Shown one piece after another: positions 3,618 through 19,617 of a stretch of DNA of 21,324 nucleotides. The notes beneath the pieces were generated by a model. It ran no database searches. It was not told where the DNA came from and saw only the letters and a program-made list of their open reading frames with translations. The position numbers and the translations under genes are program-made. Origin of the DNA: Candidatus Hydrogenedentes bacterium CG07_land_8_20_14_0_80_42_17 (GTDB lineage Bacteria; UBA8481); the NCBI GenBank assembly GCA_002780065.1, contig PEWQ01000125.1:1-21324 (forward strand), given 5' to 3'. How positions within the stretch are numbered: position 1 is the stretch's first letter; every line of letters begins with the position of its first letter.

Positions 3618-3912
3618 ACTCCCTCCTTCTTATTTTATTATATTAGATATTTCTGCATAAAATAAGCCATTTTTATTCAAAACTGAATATTTCTGTGTAT
3701 TTTTTTTTACTTTTCTAACTCTAAAATTTTTTGATAAGTTTCTTGACTTATTAATAATTAGAGAAGAAAATCCAATACTATAATAGTTATAGTTATAGTA
3801 TTGTCGGAAAGAGGGCTGGCAAAAAAGATTTAGGTAGTGAAAATTTATAGAGACAATGATAATGATACAAAGTCTTTTTTGCGTTTTATAACTGAGGGAG
3901 TTCTAATTATTT
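3618..3912. promoter_or_regulatory. Divergent intergenic control region
   Basis: This AT-rich spacer separates the leftward envelope operon from the rightward carD cluster, so it must hold promoters for both. On the minus strand a TATAAT hexamer lies about 20 bases before the ribosome-binding site of the coiled-coil gene. On the plus strand there is a TTGACT at 3743-3748 and a TATAAT at 3779-3784, but they are 30 bases apart, so they cannot be paired as one sigma-70 promoter. The 9-mer atatttctg occurs at 3647-3655 and again at 3687-3695, exactly 40 bases apart. No small gene is seen. Confidence 0.5.
3773..3803. repeat. 11-bp inverted repeat overlapping a TATAAT box
   Basis: The arms caatactataa (3773-3783) and ttatagtattg (3793-3803) are exact reverse complements around a 9-base spacer that contains further tagttatag repeats. 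The left arm overlaps a TATAAT (3779-3784). The site lies 110 bases before carD. It could be an operator or a hairpin in the 5' leader. There is no T-run, so it is not an intrinsic terminator. Confidence 0.55.
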
Positions 3913-4659
3913 ATGAATAAAAAAAAGCATTTGAAAGTTGTACCAAAGAAGAAAGAAAAGGCTTTATCACCAAAGAAGAAAGAAAAGGCTTTATCACCAA
4001 AGAAGAAAGAAAAGGCTTTATCACCAAAAAAGAAAGAAAAGACATTGAAAGTTAAGAAACCGTTAAAATTGAAATCTCCACAAAAAAATACCAAAGTTGC
4101 AAAAAAAACTCAGAAACAGGAAACTGAAATTGCACAAGTCGAGGTTAAGCGCCGCACGACGAAAAAAGATGCGAAATTTAAAATTGGAGAAATGATTGTC
4201 TATCCTTTCCACGGAGTCGGAATCATAAGGTCAATAGAGAAAATTAACGTCATAGGTGAAGACAAATGGTATTACACAATTGATTTTAGAAATGGCGAGC
4301 TGACGGTAAGAACTCCAATTGAAAACCAAAACGAAAAAGGAATGAGAAAAGTCATAAGCAAGTCCGAAGTAGATAATATTCTTGGGATATTGAAAAAGCG
4401 CCATCAAAGTGAAGAATCGGATTGGAAAGTGCGTTACAATGTTTATCTGGAAAAGCTCAAATCAGGCGATATTTACGAAGCGGCAAAGGTTGCGAGAAAT
4501 CTCTCGAAACGCGGTCCTGAAGGCGAACTATCTATGAGCGAAAAACGTCTGCTTGAGTCTGCAGTTCAACTCCTTATTCATGAAATTGCTTACGCTTCGA
4601 AGAAATCGCTCGAAGATGTTGAGCAGGAAATCAGTAAATATCTGAGGGCTGGCCGATGA
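3913..4659 (+). CDS. CarD/CdnL-family RNA polymerase-binding regulator with lysine-rich repeat tail
   Basis: A 248-residue protein. Residues about 88-150 are the CarD/TRCF-type RNA-polymerase interaction domain (KFKIGEMIVYPFHGVGIIRS) and about 155-245 the helical DNA-binding part (WKVRYNVYLEKLKSGDIYEAAKVARNLSKR). Such proteins bind RNAP beta and stabilise open complexes, mostly at rRNA and housekeeping promoters. The unusual part is residues 1-72: 30 of the first 70 residues are lysine, and the 9-mer PKKKEKALS occurs three times (11-19, 20-28, 29-37) followed by PKKKEKTLK. The repeated SPKK is a known minor-groove-binding motif in histones. Myxococcus CarD also carries a basic HMGA-like tail, but at its C-terminus. 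A GAGGGAG lies 12 bases before the ATG. The stop overlaps the next gene by 4 bases (ATGA), so the two are translationally coupled. Confidence 0.92.
   Translation: MNKKKHLKVVPKKKEKALSPKKKEKALSPKKKEKALSPKKKEKTLKVKKPLKLKSPQKNTKVAKKTQKQETEIAQVEVKRRTTKKDAKFKIGEMIVYPFHGVGIIRSIEKINVIGEDKWYYTIDFRNGELTVRTPIENQNEKGMRKVISKSEVDNILGILKKRHQSEESDWKVRYNVYLEKLKSGDIYEAAKVARNLSKRGPEGELSMSEKRLLESAVQLLIHEIAYASKKSLEDVEQEISKYLRAGR
3943..4040 (+). repeat. 27-bp tandem repeat inside carD (three exact copies plus a partial fourth)
   Basis: Identical 27-base units occupy 3943-3969, 3970-3996 and 3997-4023; a fourth, degenerate unit starts at 4024. The unit length is a multiple of three, so copy changes keep the frame and would lengthen or shorten the basic tail. 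The near-perfect identity points to recent expansion by slippage or unequal recombination. Confidence 0.95.
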
Positions 4660-5681
4660 AAAAGAATTGGATTGTTACGTTAATCATATTCTTGCCGGTA
4701 ATTTTTGTTCCCGTAATGTTTGCTCCGGAAGATCCTCGCAAATTTTATATTGGAATTTTTTCTTACGTTGCGGTCATTGCCGTCACAATGCTCTTTCAAC
4801 TCATGGGCTCCGTTTTTGACACGGCTAAAATCCGGCAGAGTCTTATAGGAGGCATATTAGGTGTTGCCGGAATATTTCTTCTTACACCTTTATTGCGTTC
4901 GTTCACGCATTCTTCTGTGGGACTGGGTGACTCGCCTATTGGACAAACAATTCTTTTGTCGGTGCTTTACTACTCAGGCTTTATGTTTGGAGCTGTTTTG
5001 AGTTATTTTTCATTTCAGCAAAAAGCAGGAGATAAAAAATCAGAGTCAATTGCATTGATAACAAGTGAAAAGAAGATATGTGATACTTCAGTTCTCATCG
5101 ACGGCAGATTAGCCGACATGGCAGATGCTGGTTTTCTCGACGGAGAAATTATTATTCCTCAATTCATCCTTAGAGAACTACAGAGCATAGCGGATTCTGC
5201 AGACCAGTTGAAAAGGAACAGAGGCAGACGCGGATTGGATATTGTAAAGAGATTACAGGATATTGAAGGACTGAAAGTTTCGATACCTGCAACCGATTTT
5301 CCAAGTGAAAAAGAAGTTGATCATAAACTTCTTTTGTTGGCACTGGACATCAATGCATCATTGATTACGAATGATTTTAATCTGAACAAAGTGGCCAAGG
5401 TTCGCTCGATAAAAGTTTTAAATCTCAATGATTTGGTGAACGCTTTGAAAACTATTTATCTGCCCGGCGAAGAGATAACGGTTCCTGTTACCAGAGCAGG
5501 CAAAGAGCCTGGTCAAGGAATTGCATATCTTGACGACGGTACCATGGTCGTAATGGATGGCGGCGCAAATCATGTCGGCAAGATGGTTAAAGCTACTGTA
5601 ACAAATATTCATCAAACTACTGCAGGAAGAATGATCTTTTCGAGATTCGAAAACATAAGCAAAAGAAACGGCGAAGAGTAA
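4656..5681 (+). CDS. Membrane-anchored PIN/TRAM-domain protein (YacL-like putative RNase)
   Basis: A 341-residue protein with four predicted N-terminal membrane helices (about 5-23, 31-50, 62-82, 97-117), a cytoplasmic PIN nuclease domain (about 140-265) and a C-terminal TRAM RNA-binding domain (about 268-334). The acidic PIN residues are visible: Asp143 in CDTSVLIDGR, Glu174 in FILREL, Asp222 in VDHKLLLLA and Asp240 in ITNDFN. This architecture is that of Bacillus YacL, which sits next to ispD and ispF in Firmicutes, as it does here. The ATG overlaps the carD stop by 4 bases. The order carD-yacL-ispD-ispF-cysS is therefore the familiar conserved one. The acidic residues predict metal-dependent ribonuclease activity, but a physiological target for YacL proteins is not established. 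Confidence 0.93.
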   Translation: MKKNWIVTLIIFLPVIFVPVMFAPEDPRKFYIGIFSYVAVIAVTMLFQLMGSVFDTAKIRQSLIGGILGVAGIFLLTPLLRSFTHSSVGLGDSPIGQTILLSVLYYSGFMFGAVLSYFSFQQKAGDKKSESIALITSEKKICDTSVLIDGRLADMADAGFLDGEIIIPQFILRELQSIADSADQLKRNRGRRGLDIVKRLQDIEGLKVSIPATDFPSEKEVDHKLLLLALDINASLITNDFNLNKVAKVRSIKVLNLNDLVNALKTIYLPGEEITVPVTRAGKEPGQGIAYLDDGTMVVMDGGANHVGKMVKATVTNIHQTTAGRMIFSRFENISKRNGEE

Positions 5682-8154: not shown

Positions 8155-8954
8155 ATATTAATCTTGAAAATAATTTACCGATCACATTTATTGCAGGGCC
8201 ATGTCTTATAGAACCGAATGTCTTTGAGATTGCTAAACGCCTTAAAGAAATATCTGATCGAAAAAAAATAAAGCTCATATTCAAAGCGTCTTACGACAAA
8301 GCCAACCGGCAATCTTTGAGTTCACCGCGTGGTGGCGGAATCAAAAAGGGATTGGAGATACTGCTTGAAATAAAAAAAGAATTTGGACTCCCAATTCTAA
8401 CAGATATTCATCATCCTGAAGAGGCGGATGAAGCCGCCAAAGTTGCCGACTGTCTTCAAATTCCCGCATTCCTTTGCAGGCAAACAGATCTCGTCATAGC
8501 GGCGGCAAAAACAGGAAAGGCAATCAACATTAAAAAGGGTCAGTTTCTCGCTCCGCAACAGATGAAGTCTATTGTCGAAAAAGCGGCCGAGTCCGGGGCA
8601 CGTGATGTTATCGTTACCGAACGCGGAACTTGTTTCGGGTACGGAGATTTAATCTTCGACCCTAGATCGATTGAAATCATGAAAGAATTTGCGCCGGTTG
8701 TTCTTGATGTGACTCACGCAGTGCAGAAATCTCTGGCAGGTGATGGAAGATCAGGCGGCGATCGCCGCTTTGTTCCGGCGCTTGCTCGAGCCGGAACTGC
8801 TTTGGGGCTTGCCGGAATTTTTATTGAAACTCATTCGGACCCGCAAAATGCGCTTTCAGATCGAGACACTCAATGGCCGCTCGATGATTTTGAAAAACTC
8901 TGCGATGAAATTGTAATGCTCGATGAAGTGATAAAAAGGAAAAAAAATGAATAA
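8139..8954 (+). CDS. kdsA: 3-deoxy-D-manno-octulosonate 8-phosphate synthase (metal-dependent class)
   Basis: Condenses PEP with arabinose 5-phosphate to Kdo8P for LPS. It has 271 residues. Motifs seen: FIAGPCLIEP, FKASYDKANRQSLSSPRGGG, LTDIHHPEEA, INIKKGQFLAPQQM, TERGTCFGYGDLIFDPRS and VLDVTHAVQ. Cys22 occupies the position where metal-independent enzymes such as E. coli KdsA have Asn. His193, Glu230 and Asp241 show the same spacing as the other metal ligands in Aquifex KdsA (His185, Glu222, Asp233). It should therefore belong to the metal-dependent class. GGAAGG precedes the ATG inside the end of cysS. It overlaps kdsD by 8 bases; KdsD makes its substrate, so the two steps are linked. Confidence 0.95.
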   Translation: MAKILNINLENNLPITFIAGPCLIEPNVFEIAKRLKEISDRKKIKLIFKASYDKANRQSLSSPRGGGIKKGLEILLEIKKEFGLPILTDIHHPEEADEAAKVADCLQIPAFLCRQTDLVIAAAKTGKAINIKKGQFLAPQQMKSIVEKAAESGARDVIVTERGTCFGYGDLIFDPRSIEIMKEFAPVVLDVTHAVQKSLAGDGRSGGDRRFVPALARAGTALGLAGIFIETHSDPQNALSDRDTQWPLDDFEKLCDEIVMLDEVIKRKKNE

Positions 8955-9915
8955 TAAAATACTTGAAGATGCAAAAAAGGTTTTCGATATCGAGATATCT
9001 GCGCTGAAAGGAGTCGCATCTTCGCTTGACGAAAATTTTGTTAAAGTTATCTCTGCGATTGAAGCTAGAGAAGGCAAGGTTATTGTCACAGGACTCGGAA
9101 AATCCGGAGCTGTCGGCAGAAAGATTGCGGCAACGCTCTCTTCGACTGGAACTCCAACAGTCTTTATTCATGCGGCTGAAGGCCTCCACGGCGATTTGGG
9201 CATTATAGACAAAAAAGATATTGTCATCGCAATTTCATACTCCGGAGAAACGAATGAGCTTTCTCTTCTTATTCCGGCAATAAAAAGGCTTGGAGTCAAA
9301 CTCATAGCGATAACCGGTAAATTAGATTCAACTCTAGGCCGAGCCGCGGATATCTCACTTTCTGTGAATATAGATAAAGAAGCATGTCCGCTTGGGCTTG
9401 CGCCAACCTCGTCTACTACTGCAATTCTTGTAATGGGCGATGCTCTTGCTGTGGCTCTTTACCGCGCAAAAAACTTCACTGCCGAGGATTTTGCGTTGAG
9501 GCATCCGGGCGGCGCGTTGGGAAGATCTCTCAAAAAAGTTTCTGAATTGATGCACAAAGGAGAAGAGATTCCCGTCTCAAATGAAGATGACTCCATGAGC
9601 GACGTAATAATTGAAATGACCAAAAAAAAGTTGGGCATGACTTGCATTGTAAATTCAAAAGGCAAATTGAAAGGTATTGTCACCGACGGCGATTTGAGAA
9701 GACTGATGCAAAAAAGACAGAATAACGCTTTGGAGTTAAAAGCATCTGAAGTGATGACAAAGTCTCCGCGAACAATTAACGAAACGGAATTTGCTGTTAA
9801 AGCTTTGACTGTAATGGAAGAAAACAAAATCACTTCTCTGGTGGTTGCGGACAAAATGCAAAGACCTGTTGGAGTTATTCACATTCACGATATTCTCCGC
9901 TCGAAGGTGGTTTAA
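8947..9915 (+). CDS. kdsD: D-arabinose 5-phosphate isomerase (KdsD/KpsF family)
   Basis: Interconverts ribulose 5-phosphate and arabinose 5-phosphate, the precursor for KdsA. It has 322 residues, the normal length. An N-terminal SIS sugar-isomerase domain (about 30-165) shows VTGLGKSGAVGRKIAATLSS, HGDLGII, ISYSGETNEL and the conserved LGLAPTSSTTAILVMGDAL, then FALRHPGGALGR. Two CBS domains follow (about 205-260 and 268-322), including GIVTDGDLRRLMQ. The gene overlaps kdsA by 8 bases. No KdsC or KdsB gene follows, which is the more common arrangement; here hemW comes next. Confidence 0.95.
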   Translation: MNNKILEDAKKVFDIEISALKGVASSLDENFVKVISAIEAREGKVIVTGLGKSGAVGRKIAATLSSTGTPTVFIHAAEGLHGDLGIIDKKDIVIAISYSGETNELSLLIPAIKRLGVKLIAITGKLDSTLGRAADISLSVNIDKEACPLGLAPTSSTTAILVMGDALAVALYRAKNFTAEDFALRHPGGALGRSLKKVSELMHKGEEIPVSNEDDSMSDVIIEMTKKKLGMTCIVNSKGKLKGIVTDGDLRRLMQKRQNNALELKASEVMTKSPRTINETEFAVKALTVMEENKITSLVVADKMQRPVGVIHIHDILRSKVV

Positions 9916-16599: not shown

Positions 16600-17274
16600 A
16601 TGCTCGCAAAACGAACAATGTCGCGTCCTCTAACTGATCTTAGAAAACGCACATTCTTCGGATTGTGCGGAGCCATCATCTTCATCTCAGCCATCATTAC
16701 TTCTTCAAAAGCTACGGCGATTCTTTTTTCATTGCTTTTTTTTATTAGTCTTTTCGAACTTTTTACAATGTACAAACAATTGAAGAATAAACTTTCGATA
16801 GCACATTTAATATTATTGGGAATTTATCCTGTCATCATAACAGCGGGCACTTTTTCTGCTATTTTGCTTAGACGGAAATATCCTTCACTACTGCTTTTAA
16901 CCGTCATTATCTGCACGTGGAGCGCAGACAGCGGCGCCTACTTTTACGGTATGAAATTTGGTAAGCATTTTATGATTCCCACAATATCTCCTTCAAAAAC
17001 ATGGGAAGGAGCAGTAGGAGGCTTTGTTGCTCCGATAATAGCGGCTCTAATTCTTGGATTATTTTCCAAGAATTTCACGTTTTCAATTTGCACCGGTATT
17101 GTAGCGGGAACTTTTGGTCAGCTTGGAGATATTGTTGAGTCAAAAATAAAACGGATAGTGGAAATAAAAGATTCGGGCTCATTGATTCCAGGACATGGTG
17201 GAATGCTCGATAGATTCGATGCCTTTTTCTTCAACTCTACAGCAATGTTTTTTATAGTTTCAGTTTTTCTTTAA
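16600..17274 (+). CDS. cdsA: Phosphatidate cytidylyltransferase (CDP-diglyceride synthase)
   Basis: Makes CDP-diacylglycerol from phosphatidate and CTP in the inner membrane, the branch point of phospholipid synthesis. Most of the protein is hydrophobic, with about six or seven helices. The CDS signature is complete near the C-terminus: ESKIKRIVEIKDSGSLIPGH followed by GGMLDRFDAFF; TWSADSGAYFYGMKFGKH and SPSKTWEGAVGG are also typical. At 224 residues it is shorter than most (about 260-285), with fewer N-terminal and middle helices. ATG 16618 is an alternative start. The last 18 codons, including the stop, lie in a 60-base repeat shared with the dapL end, so the present 3' end is one copy of a duplicated sequence; the frame is intact. 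Confidence 0.9.
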   Translation: MLAKRTMSRPLTDLRKRTFFGLCGAIIFISAIITSSKATAILFSLLFFISLFELFTMYKQLKNKLSIAHLILLGIYPVIITAGTFSAILLRRKYPSLLLLTVIICTWSADSGAYFYGMKFGKHFMIPTISPSKTWEGAVGGFVAPIIAALILGLFSKNFTFSICTGIVAGTFGQLGDIVESKIKRIVEIKDSGSLIPGHGGMLDRFDAFFFNSTAMFFIVSVFL

Positions 17275-17280
17275 TTCTCT
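17221..17280. repeat. 60-bp direct repeat, left copy
   Basis: These 60 bases are identical to 18351-18410; identity stops exactly at both edges (T versus C before, A versus T after). This copy provides the last 17 sense codons and stop of cdsA. It also contains, in the opposite orientation, the last codons of dapL, which are not used here. Confidence 0.97.
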
Positions 17281-17309
17281 ATCTTAACTGATTCTTTAGA
17301 GACATTGTC

Positions 17310-17783
17310 TCAGTCACAAATAACGACTGAACCATCATGTCCATTGTAAGTAAAATGCCAATGCAAGAGAATATCGCGTCCAATCAAACAATCAAAATTT
17401 TTAAGAGGACAAGAAACAATCGGGCTCTCTATACCGCTACCCCAAGGAAATATGATAAAACCATAATAAACTGGTTGCTGTTGTTCATCTTGAACTGAAG
17501 AAACTTTTTGAAAACCTGTGTGAACGAGTCCAAGTTGGTCAGCTACATCAGGCGTTATCACAGTACAACTTGCTCCTGTATCAATTAAGGCATTTATGTT
17601 AACTGTTGGAACACTTTTCCCCTGTTGTTTAAAATTTTCTTGAACAATCTGCGGGTGAGTAATGTTAACTTTGATAATAGCTCCCATTTGATATAAAACA
17701 ACTGACGATGGAATCTGGACGATTATTTCCTTTCCATCTTTCTTCATTTTACCCTGACCACCATACCTGTATGTGTTTATCAT
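17310..17783 (-). CDS. Retropepsin-like aspartic protease family protein
   Basis: A 157-residue protein without signal peptide or membrane helix. NALIDTGASCTVITPDVADQ contains the catalytic DTGA (Asp68) of retroviral-type aspartic proteases, which act as dimers. The second hallmark, CLIGRDILLHWHFTYNG (132-148), is the family's IGRD-type strand-helix before the last glycine. Residues 20-60 form the N-terminal strands. The start overlaps the DUF5678-like stop by 4 bases (ATGA), so the two are translationally coupled; an alternative start is Met13 (17747), preceded by a GGTGGTCAGGG stretch. Prokaryotic soluble retropepsin homologues of this kind have no well-defined targets. It lies inside the inserted cassette and its frame is complete, so it is probably functional. 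Confidence 0.85.
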   Translation of the reverse strand: MINTYRYGGQGKMKKDGKEIIVQIPSSVVLYQMGAIIKVNITHPQIVQENFKQQGKSVPTVNINALIDTGASCTVITPDVADQLGLVHTGFQKVSSVQDEQQQPVYYGFIIFPWGSGIESPIVSCPLKNFDCLIGRDILLHWHFTYNGHDGSVVICD

Positions 17784-18019
17784 AACGTAGCTTCCATGAT
17801 AAAGTTTAGCGGTTCTTTTTCAACTAAATGATAAACAAGAAAGCTTGTGTCTACCCCATATAAACGTACTCCTTCCTTTGCAGCTCGTTCATAACTATCG
17901 TAAGAAGCCACTAGATTTTCTTCAAACACAAGAATGAATTTGTTACTATGCTCCTTGAGTAAGGATTCTTTGTTTTTGTTAACGAAATCAAGATTTTTCT
18001 TCAAATCTTTTTCACCCAT
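17780..18019 (-). CDS. DUF5678-like small protein
   Basis: A 79-residue protein starting at the ATG at 18019, which has AAGGAGGAAGAT directly before it; a TTG start six codons earlier is less likely because it lies upstream of that site. A charged helix (3-30) precedes a compact alpha-beta core: KFILVFEENLVASYDSYERA, then a helix and SFLVYHLVEKEPLNFI. This resembles the DUF5678 pattern (a strand with the protein's own value, a DSYE-type helix, a closing strand). It overlaps the retropepsin-like gene by 4 bases. The tight coupling suggests that the two proteins act together, possibly as substrate, inhibitor or targeting partner of the protease. The function is unknown. Confidence 0.7.
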   Translation of the reverse strand: MGEKDLKKNLDFVNKNKESLLKEHSNKFILVFEENLVASYDSYERAAKEGVRLYGVDTSFLVYHLVEKEPLNFIMEATL

Positions 18020-18053
18020 ATCTTCCTCCTTTTTCAATTATATGATAGGAACT

Positions 18054-18235
18054 TCAATTCTCGTTGCATATTTGCGAAGGTAGCAGAGCGAGTTGATGTT
18101 GTAAACACGAAAGGGTGGCGGCAACATCATCTTCGATGGACTCGATATTGCCCTCACTGATGCAACCAGGTAGAGAGGGACATAGACTGTGAAGCATCCT
18201 TCTTCGCTTGGTTCAAGAACGGCTTGAATCTTCAT
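18054..18235 (-). pseudogene. Frameshifted HicB-like antitoxin remnant
   Basis: The ATG at 18235 follows a strong GGAGG and encodes MKIQAVLEPSEEGCFTVYVP, the N-terminal strands of a HicB-like antitoxin. The frame then turns into unrelated sequence. Shifting by one base within ccctctct restores SLPGCISEG, the hallmark that normally follows, and continues to a stop at 18054-18056. One base has therefore been lost, either by mutation or by a sequencing error. The sequence after SEG is a poor match to a normal HicB. No HicA toxin gene is adjacent. It starts 34 bases before the DUF5678-like ribosome-binding site and could be the first, now broken, gene of that transcript. Without the shift the frame reads on to about 18038. 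Confidence 0.72.
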
Positions 18236-18250
18236 CTCACCCTCCTGCAA

Positions 18251-18350
18251 ATATTGTGCGCTGTCGCACCGAGAAAATCAAGGGAATGTTTTCGCACCCT
18301 GAACAACGCTACGCCCATGCGAATTTTTACGAAAGAAAACGCGGCTCCCC
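18251..18350 (-). promoter_or_regulatory. Leader of the inserted cassette with repeated TCGCACC and a hairpin
   Basis: This stretch upstream of the hicB remnant is richer in G and C than the cassette genes. TCGCACC occurs at 18264-18270 and at 18292-18298, a period of 28 bases. GTGCG CTGT CGCAC (18256-18269) forms a five-base hairpin. Such paired sites before a hicB-type gene would suit autoregulation, but no clear promoter hexamers are visible. A short frame (18232-18318) overlaps the hicB start by 4 bases. Confidence 0.35.
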
Positions 18351-18410
18351 GCCTTTTTCTTCAACTCTACAGCAATGTTTTTTATAGTTTCAGTTTTTCT
18401 TTAATTCTCT
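18351..18410. repeat. 60-bp direct repeat, right copy
   Basis: This is an exact copy of 17221-17280. Here it supplies the C-terminal codons (KRIKEKLKL) and stop of dapL on the minus strand; on the plus strand it still carries the orphaned end of cdsA. Confidence 0.97.
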
Positions 18411-19617
18411 TCAAAGCAAGTTCAATGCGCTTAGACTCGCCGAATGCGCTCAGCCTGAAATATCCTTCACCCGCCGGTCCAAATCCTGCTCCAGGTGTGC
18501 CTACCACATTCGCTTCATTTAAAAGTTTATCGAAAAATCTCCATGAATCCATTCCAGACGGAAGCTTCACCCAGATATACGGAGCATTAACTCCACCGTA
18601 AACTTCGAAGCCGACGGAAGCCAGACCTTCCCTGATCATCCTTGCATTTCCGAGATACAATTCAATTAATGATCGGATTTGCTGCTTCCCTTCATCAGAG
18701 TAAGCTGCTTCGGCAGCACGCTGAACAGGATATGAAACACCGTTGAATTTTGTGCAGTGACGTCTGTTCCAAAGTCCATTCAAAAAAACTTTTTTCCCAT
18801 TGGAAGTATTTGCGTTTACATTTTTTGGAACTACTGTAAATGCGCATCTAGTTCCGGTAAAGCCGGCGTTCTTTGAAAAGCTTCTAAATTCTATTGCGAC
18901 CTCTTTCGCGCCTTCAATCTCATAGATAGAATGCGGCAGATTTTTATCTGTTATGTAAGCTTCATAAGCCGCATCGAATAAAATAATCGATTCGTGCTTT
19001 CGAGCATAATCCACCCATTTAGTTAGAGCGGTTCTATCAAGCGTTGCGCCTGTCGGATTATTTGGAGAGCATAAATAAATTATGTCTACGTTTTCTTTCG
19101 GAAGATCAGGATTGAATGAGTTCTCTGAAGTGCATGGCAAATAAACTATTCCTTCGTATCTGCCATCAGAAAGCGCATTGCCGGTCCTTCCAGCCATCAC
19201 ATTAGAATCCACATATACCGGATAGACCGGATCTTCCAGAGCAACAACATTATCAACAGAAAAAAGTTCTTGAATATTTCCCGTATCACATTTAGAACCG
19301 TCGGAAACAAAAATTTCATCTTTATCTAACTCTACGCCTCTGGCGCGATAATCGTTCTCGATAATCTTTTCGACCAGAAAATCATAGCCCTGTTCAGGAC
19401 CGTATCCGTGAAATGTCTTCTTCTTCTTCATCTCTTTTACAGCTTTTTTAAAAGCAGACACAATACTTCTAGGAAGAGGTTCGGTGACGTCACCGATTCC
19501 AAGCCTGATTATATCCGCGTCCGGATTTAATCTTCTGAACTCCAAAGTTCTTTTGGCAATTTCAGGAAATAGGTATCCCGCTTTCAGCTTCAAAAAATTT
19601 TCATTCACTCTAGCCAT
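18382..19617 (-). CDS. dapL: LL-diaminopimelate aminotransferase
   Basis: Converts tetrahydrodipicolinate directly to LL-diaminopimelate with glutamate and PLP, bypassing the acyl branches of lysine and peptidoglycan synthesis. It has 411 residues, as expected. Family markers are [83 protein letters not shown] and [15 protein letters not shown], where Lys249 should form the PLP Schiff base; [20 protein letters not shown] follows. GAGGTGA lies 5 bases before the ATG. The gene starts 4 bases after folK ends. Its last nine codons lie in the 60-base repeat flanking the inserted cassette. Confidence 0.96.

Follow-up and report, generated by a model that had tools for sequence, protein, structure and literature searches.

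Toxin-antitoxin (TA) modules and small defence modules are, to our knowledge, plainly mobile and mostly lack a recombinase, and how such modules come to lie in a chromosome is still an open question. A pattern of insertion with long target duplication was reportedly described for restriction-modification (RM) genes by Nobusato et al. of Kobayashi's group in 2000 (Gene 259:99), and we know of no solution to its mechanism since it was proposed. In Helicobacter pylori, 'insertion with long target duplication' came to light when strains were compared, and it has been associated with RM genes (PMC1643837, PMC3031569, PMC3874152), a precedent that was missing from the original prediction on the locus described here. 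The target duplications are given in a 2013 review as long, variable and 'in the order of 100 bp' (PMC3874152). Transposed genes of Arabidopsis also have host-derived flanking repeats, and excision followed by reintegration via a circle has been proposed for them (PMC2869330).

The window analysed here comprises positions 1 to 21,324 of contig PEWQ01000125.1 from Candidatus Hydrogenedentes bacterium CG07_land_8_20_14_0_80_42_17 (assembly GCA_002780065.1). Its insert between cdsA and dapL (site C46) and the sister inserts in the same genome resemble the Kobayashi type in that a module without a linked recombinase lies between direct repeats of host sequence, which are variable and of the order of 100 bp and permit precise loss or amplification of the module. 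They differ in cargo, which here consists of TA or defence-type pairs and not of RM genes: no RM gene is present among the cargo at C46, and one sister insert (C58) has a PD-(D/E)XK-like gene. They also differ in number, since 1.47 Mb sampled from a single genome, in a poorly sampled phylum, holds at least 11 of them; and whereas in H. pylori the evidence comes from comparing strains, the present cases are known from filled sites alone. The transposed genes of Arabidopsis also have genic flanking repeats of more than 30 bp, whose sequence is present just once where the target is empty, but they belong to a eukaryote, their parental copies are often known and reintegration of a circle has been proposed (PMC2869330). 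Insertion sequences and unit transposons are likewise flanked by a direct target duplication, but the present inserts are without a transposase, terminal inverted repeats or a fixed short duplication. Site-specific integrative elements that restore gene ends also use direct repeats to complete an interrupted host gene, but here there are eleven sites with eleven different repeats, inserts of ~1 kb and no integrase. A text search of the literature, largely outside subscription papers, did not find the pattern for TA cassettes recurring in one genome. Judged from sequence, the inserts would thus be a Kobayashi-type structure extended to TA and defence cassettes in a poorly sampled phylum.

The duplication and its cargo at the cdsA-dapL junction

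Two blocks at 17221-17280 and 18351-18410 form a direct repeat in which 60/60 bases are identical at a spacing of 1130, and the sequences diverge immediately outside both copies on either side. The left copy ends cdsA (phosphatidate cytidylyltransferase; 16600..17274, plus strand), which matches Pfam CTP_transf_1 along residues 23-223 of its 224 (E=9e-46). Its stop side lies at offset 54, and the final 54 bp of the gene are within the repeat. The right copy ends dapL (LL-diaminopimelate aminotransferase; 18382..19617, minus strand; TIGR03542, E=6e-191, residues 3-408 of 411), whose end at 18382 is offset 32 and whose final 29 bp are within the repeat. The two genes are convergent and each copy completes one of them. 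Since the CTP_transf_1 and TIGR03542 matches reach the ends encoded by the repeat, both gene ends look native. The simplest ancestral layout would be a single copy of the repeat in which the tails of cdsA and dapL share 23 bp. The original prediction had described the sharply bounded blocks, the assignment of the gene ends and this collapsed site, and the coordinates agree with it on all of these. Its 1.07-kb insert was right in size and is, more precisely, the 1,070-bp segment 17281-18350 between the copies.

Comparable-score flanking repeats were found around 0 of 3,914 random 500-bp segments of the same genome, and a chance origin of the 60-bp repeat is therefore excluded. As the prediction had suggested, the 60-base sequence was searched for beyond the site; no further occurrence of it or of the insert was found in the genome assembly. 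No recombinase or integrase domain was recognised among the insert ORFs scanned, and the insert termini have no inverted repeat of more than 6 bp. The absence of a recombinase and a duplication far beyond the lengths made by transposases, both of which had been claimed for this locus, are thus borne out by the insert and its 60-bp repeat. An Rfam scan of the window gave no RNA gene match, a search for a tRNA as a possible attachment site found none, and the cassette was not found in viral contigs and plasmids. The neighbours of cdsA differ in the one other genome of the phylum examined; searches of relatives and of the phylum, together with a CdsA contig scan of one genome, gave no relative with an empty site that was close enough.

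The insert carries, in minus-strand order, a HicB remnant, a DUF5678-like gene and a protease gene, the latter two intact. The remnant of a HicB-type antitoxin (18054..18235, minus strand) is frameshifted; its two frames jointly match HicB_lk_antitox with E=7.5e-4, and an RBS-like AGGAGG lies upstream. The finding of a decayed HicB between perfect repeats means that the antitoxin gene had either lost its frame before arrival or was broken very recently, the age limit set by the perfect repeats being a loose one, with only ~31 bases of the right copy free of coding constraint. The DUF5678-like gene (17780..18037, minus strand) encodes a small protein of 85 aa with a sub-threshold Pfam match to DUF5678 (E=0.07). 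It has a TTG start, with an internal ATG 18 bp later, and shares 4 bp with the protease gene. Its AlphaFold model is a confident small fold (pLDDT 85.6), for which comparison with the PDB gave no meaningful match. The third gene (17310..17783, minus strand) encodes a clan AA (retropepsin-like) aspartic protease of 157 aa, with matches to Pfam Asp_protease_2 (3e-6) and RVP (1.8e-4), the LIDTGAS active-site motif and a weak match to a PADLOC candidate defence family (PDC-M08B, 2e-4).

A DUF5678-like homologue was observed directly upstream of the protease at 19 of 21 loci in other genomes across the domain (L031-L051), and the two genes therefore constitute a conserved two-gene module. From its sequence the module is possibly TA- or defence-like; profile search gave no match of the pair to a TA family. 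The original prediction had proposed looking for the same cassette elsewhere with other flanking duplications. No host-type long flanking repeats were seen around the clan AA protease homologues at the 21 other loci, where three had matches of 16-29 bp. The cassette itself is therefore not the maker of the repeats.

Sister inserts in the same genome

The genome assembly comprises 207 contigs and is 87% complete. A total of 1.47 Mb of it was sampled as stretches, and each contig was compared with itself for unique direct repeats of at least 26 bp spaced 0.25-10 kb apart. Besides that of the window, nine repeat pairs enclose addiction or defence-type genes; a tenth sister site, C2 (27 bp), was picked up when the length limit of this survey was lowered, and also by a family search. 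The ten sister inserts measure 0.56-1.34 kb and lie between unique direct repeats of 26-202 bp whose copies are 87-100% identical. The claim that an insertion duplicated about 60 bp of its target and left both genes whole is thereby greatly strengthened by ten further cases.

The cargo across the sister sites consists almost entirely of TA or candidate-defence genes, several of them in PADLOC candidate defence families. At C55 (L060), a 76-bp repeat (75 identical; 8490-8565 / 9590-9665) encloses 1024 bp with a Phd/YefM-like gene and a PIN gene, and a SpoU-type methylase gene and a BioF-like gene converge on this insert, which also contains a 19-bp tandem array (ATCTTGAGATACCGCACGC). At C19 (L090), an 81-bp repeat (79 identical; 3891-3971 / 4877-4957) encloses 905 bp encoding a Bro-N protein (PADLOC PDC-S13). 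Here the start of proS is inside the repeat, and the insert lies between a promoter-plus-start fragment and intact proS. The longest repeat, at C58 (L063), measures 202 bp (190 identical, 94%; 3951-4152 / 5350-5551) around 1197 bp with DUF433, DUF5615 and the PD-(D/E)XK-like gene. Unstab_antitox and ParE genes occupy the 908-bp insert at C86 (repeat 82 bp, 79 identical), and a YafQ toxin with a partner the 809-bp insert at C82 (114 bp, 99 identical). RhuM (PADLOC PDC-S05) is found at C135 (58 bp, 58 identical; insert 1055 bp), and a nucleotidyltransferase (NTP_transf_2) with HepT at C137 (50 bp, 49 identical; insert 680 bp). The shortest repeats surround AbiEii and an HTH gene at C107 (26 bp, 26 identical; insert 1337 bp), HicA and a HicB-like gene at C98 (26 bp, 25 identical; insert 556 bp), and RelB-like and ParE/HigB genes at C2 (27 bp, 25 identical; insert 583 bp); these 26-27-bp sites are individually the least secure of the class. 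The G+C content is 26-52% in the inserts and 37-46% in the flanks, and no linked recombinase was recognised in the sister inserts. Across the 11 sites the copies of a repeat diverge by 0-13%, and the insertion events are therefore of different ages.

Host gene boundaries are intact at 11/11 sites. The repeats hold convergent gene ends at C46, C55 and C2, and at C58 a divergent promoter, where both start regions are duplicated and both genes keep their starts. The start of one gene lies in the repeat at C19 (proS) and C137, the end of one gene adjoining the start of another at C82 and C98, and a gene end only at C86, while C135 and C107 are intergenic. The phenomenon is special neither to cdsA-dapL nor to convergent genes; among the other sites are gene starts, divergent promoters and junctions of co-directional genes. 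Placed at random in this genome, an insertion leaves every called gene whole in 16% of cases with no duplication, in 20% with a duplication of 60 bp and in 30% with one of 202 bp. Against this random 16-30%, sparing at all 11 sites is therefore a result of selection. The same figures bear on the earlier claim that the duplication favours survival of the insertion, which is true in direction and weak in size: duplication helps gene survival modestly on average, yet it keeps genes whole at sites like C46.

The reverse test started from TA loci, which were located by family searches of the whole genome for ParE, PIN, HepT, MNT, Phd/YefM and HicA. Nine loci with both flanks were testable, and three more at contig ends were left out. 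A long flanking repeat was observed at 4/9 (C2, C55, C137 and C98) and was absent at the other five (C92, C3, C100, C97 and C85), the random expectation of such repeats being less than 1 in 3,900 (0/3,914 random segments). Three TA loci lie close to contig ends, at most a few hundred bases away, at L146 12799-13292 (Phd-ParE), L063 15859-16095 (MNT) and L190 29-797 (MNT-HepT); long repeats around these loci could have broken the assembly.

Possible origins of the inserts

We consider it probable that the insert at cdsA-dapL, as one of at least 11 such inserts, arose by break-capture of a foreign fragment of ~1 kb with copying of the target, and that such inserts are retained through addictive cargo. 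At each site two strand breaks would have occurred, offset by some tens of bp up to two hundred bp. A fragment of DNA would have become attached to both ends, and fill-in of the single-stranded tails would have copied the stretch between the breaks. A template-switch repair that returned upstream of its departure point would give an equal product, and we infer the offset breaks, the joining of the fragment and the fill-in, or the equivalent template switch, from the structure of the sites. Insertions would have survived only where the duplicated stretch held a gene boundary, leaving a set of sites that all spare genes. If the two repeats recombined, the empty site would be recovered without change, which makes an insert unstable unless its loss is punished. 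Cells that lose a TA module would be penalised, and the surviving inserts would be enriched for addictive cargo. We propose that the retained cargo is mostly TA and defence modules because unpunished inserts would be lost via the repeats. The retention argument is weakest at C46, because the HicB remnant is dead and the DUF5678-protease pair is the only candidate for addictive cargo. Ku, the usual bacterial end-joining protein, was sought in the genome and not found; any end joining would therefore proceed by another pathway, this absence being uncertain because the genome is 87% complete.

A bolder reading, which we think rather unlikely, is that the lineage possesses a dedicated insertion system that makes staggered cuts 26-202 bp apart and repeatedly delivers cassettes of ~1 kb, with addiction or defence genes, to gene boundaries, and that this is a general chromosomal route for recombinase-less TA modules. 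A related idea is that an unlinked transposase, integrase or retroelement-like enzyme nicks widely and inserts the cassettes in trans. Eleven alike events in one genome, with inserts of 0.56-1.34 kb and continuing over time, would be in keeping with such an enzyme. Nevertheless, comparison of the insert ends across the 11 sites revealed none that are shared, and inverted matches near the termini reach no more than 6 bp at C46 and 4-8 bp elsewhere, so that terminal inverted repeats are absent. The cargo is not common to the sites and the duplication length is not fixed, varying eightfold from 26 to 202 bp. In view of these features we regard an enzyme acting in trans as improbable.

Equally improbable in our judgement is integration of the Campbell type, in which a circle with the cassette and a copy of a host segment recombines into the chromosome by homology and leaves repeats on either side. 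It yields exact long direct repeats, and a plant model has been published (PMC2869330); moreover, recombination between the present repeats would make such circles, which could spread an existing insertion among strains. However, the 11 sites and their cargos are unrelated, and every circle would have had to carry the matching host boundary beforehand, and neither the repeat nor the insert at cdsA-dapL recurs elsewhere in the genome. Integration of this type would explain the spread of an insertion but not its origin.

An assembly artefact, with a repeat-length join made during metagenome assembly, is conceivable for a fragmented assembly such as this one, where an exact 60-bp repeat could equal the word length of the assembler. 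The sister repeats, however, range from 26 to 202 bp with lengths that differ at nearly every site, and the copies differ by substitutions in 8 of 11 pairs, which a loop in a k-mer graph cannot create. A constant overlap of 60 bp at contig ends is not seen, and even a graph loop would require reads over both junctions. A k-mer assembly artefact is thus excluded as a general cause for the class, and we give an artefact hardly any weight at this site. It is just as far-fetched that an older tandem duplication of the cdsA/dapL boundary received foreign DNA exactly between its copies, which is compatible with this one site taken alone but would require a precise second insertion at a tandem junction 11 times independently, and leftover tandem copies without an insert were not seen among the unique repeats in 1.47 Mb.

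Break-capture with copying of the target remains our preferred reading. In this bacterium, small selfish pairs of genes seem to become chromosomal by a route in which 26-202 bp of the target are copied and the genes of the host are spared. The sites further suggest a simple rule: an insert between long repeats can be excised precisely, and what remains is therefore the addictive cargo. At least 11 clean examples, from several TA and candidate-defence families and of varied ages, provide pairs of junctions on which break-capture can be tested against enzyme-driven models.

Other repeats in the genome

Several further repeat pairs were examined and do not belong to the class. The pair at C125 consists of paralogous genes and that at C113 of AT-rich interspersed repeats. 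At C138 (L183), a 135-bp direct repeat (4829-4963 / 9232-9366; 98.5%) is a GGGGTCAGGCTTGAAC-type element; it surrounds core genes and is also present on another contig. At C11 (L082; 119-392 / 2590-2796), diverged repeats of 53 bp and 39 bp lie in a glycosyltransferase region and their order is non-collinear.

AT-rich interspersed repeats (TGCAAATTGGAAAG units) and GGCGTCCATTGACGCG arrays were observed at many contig ends (L054, L057, L060, L066, L071, L099 and L111), and they are probably the cause of the fragmentation of this genome. In the window itself, a 27-bp tandem repeat in three copies (ACCAAAGAAGAAAGAAAAGGCTTTATC) is present at 3942-4028, close to where the ORF 3913-4659 begins.
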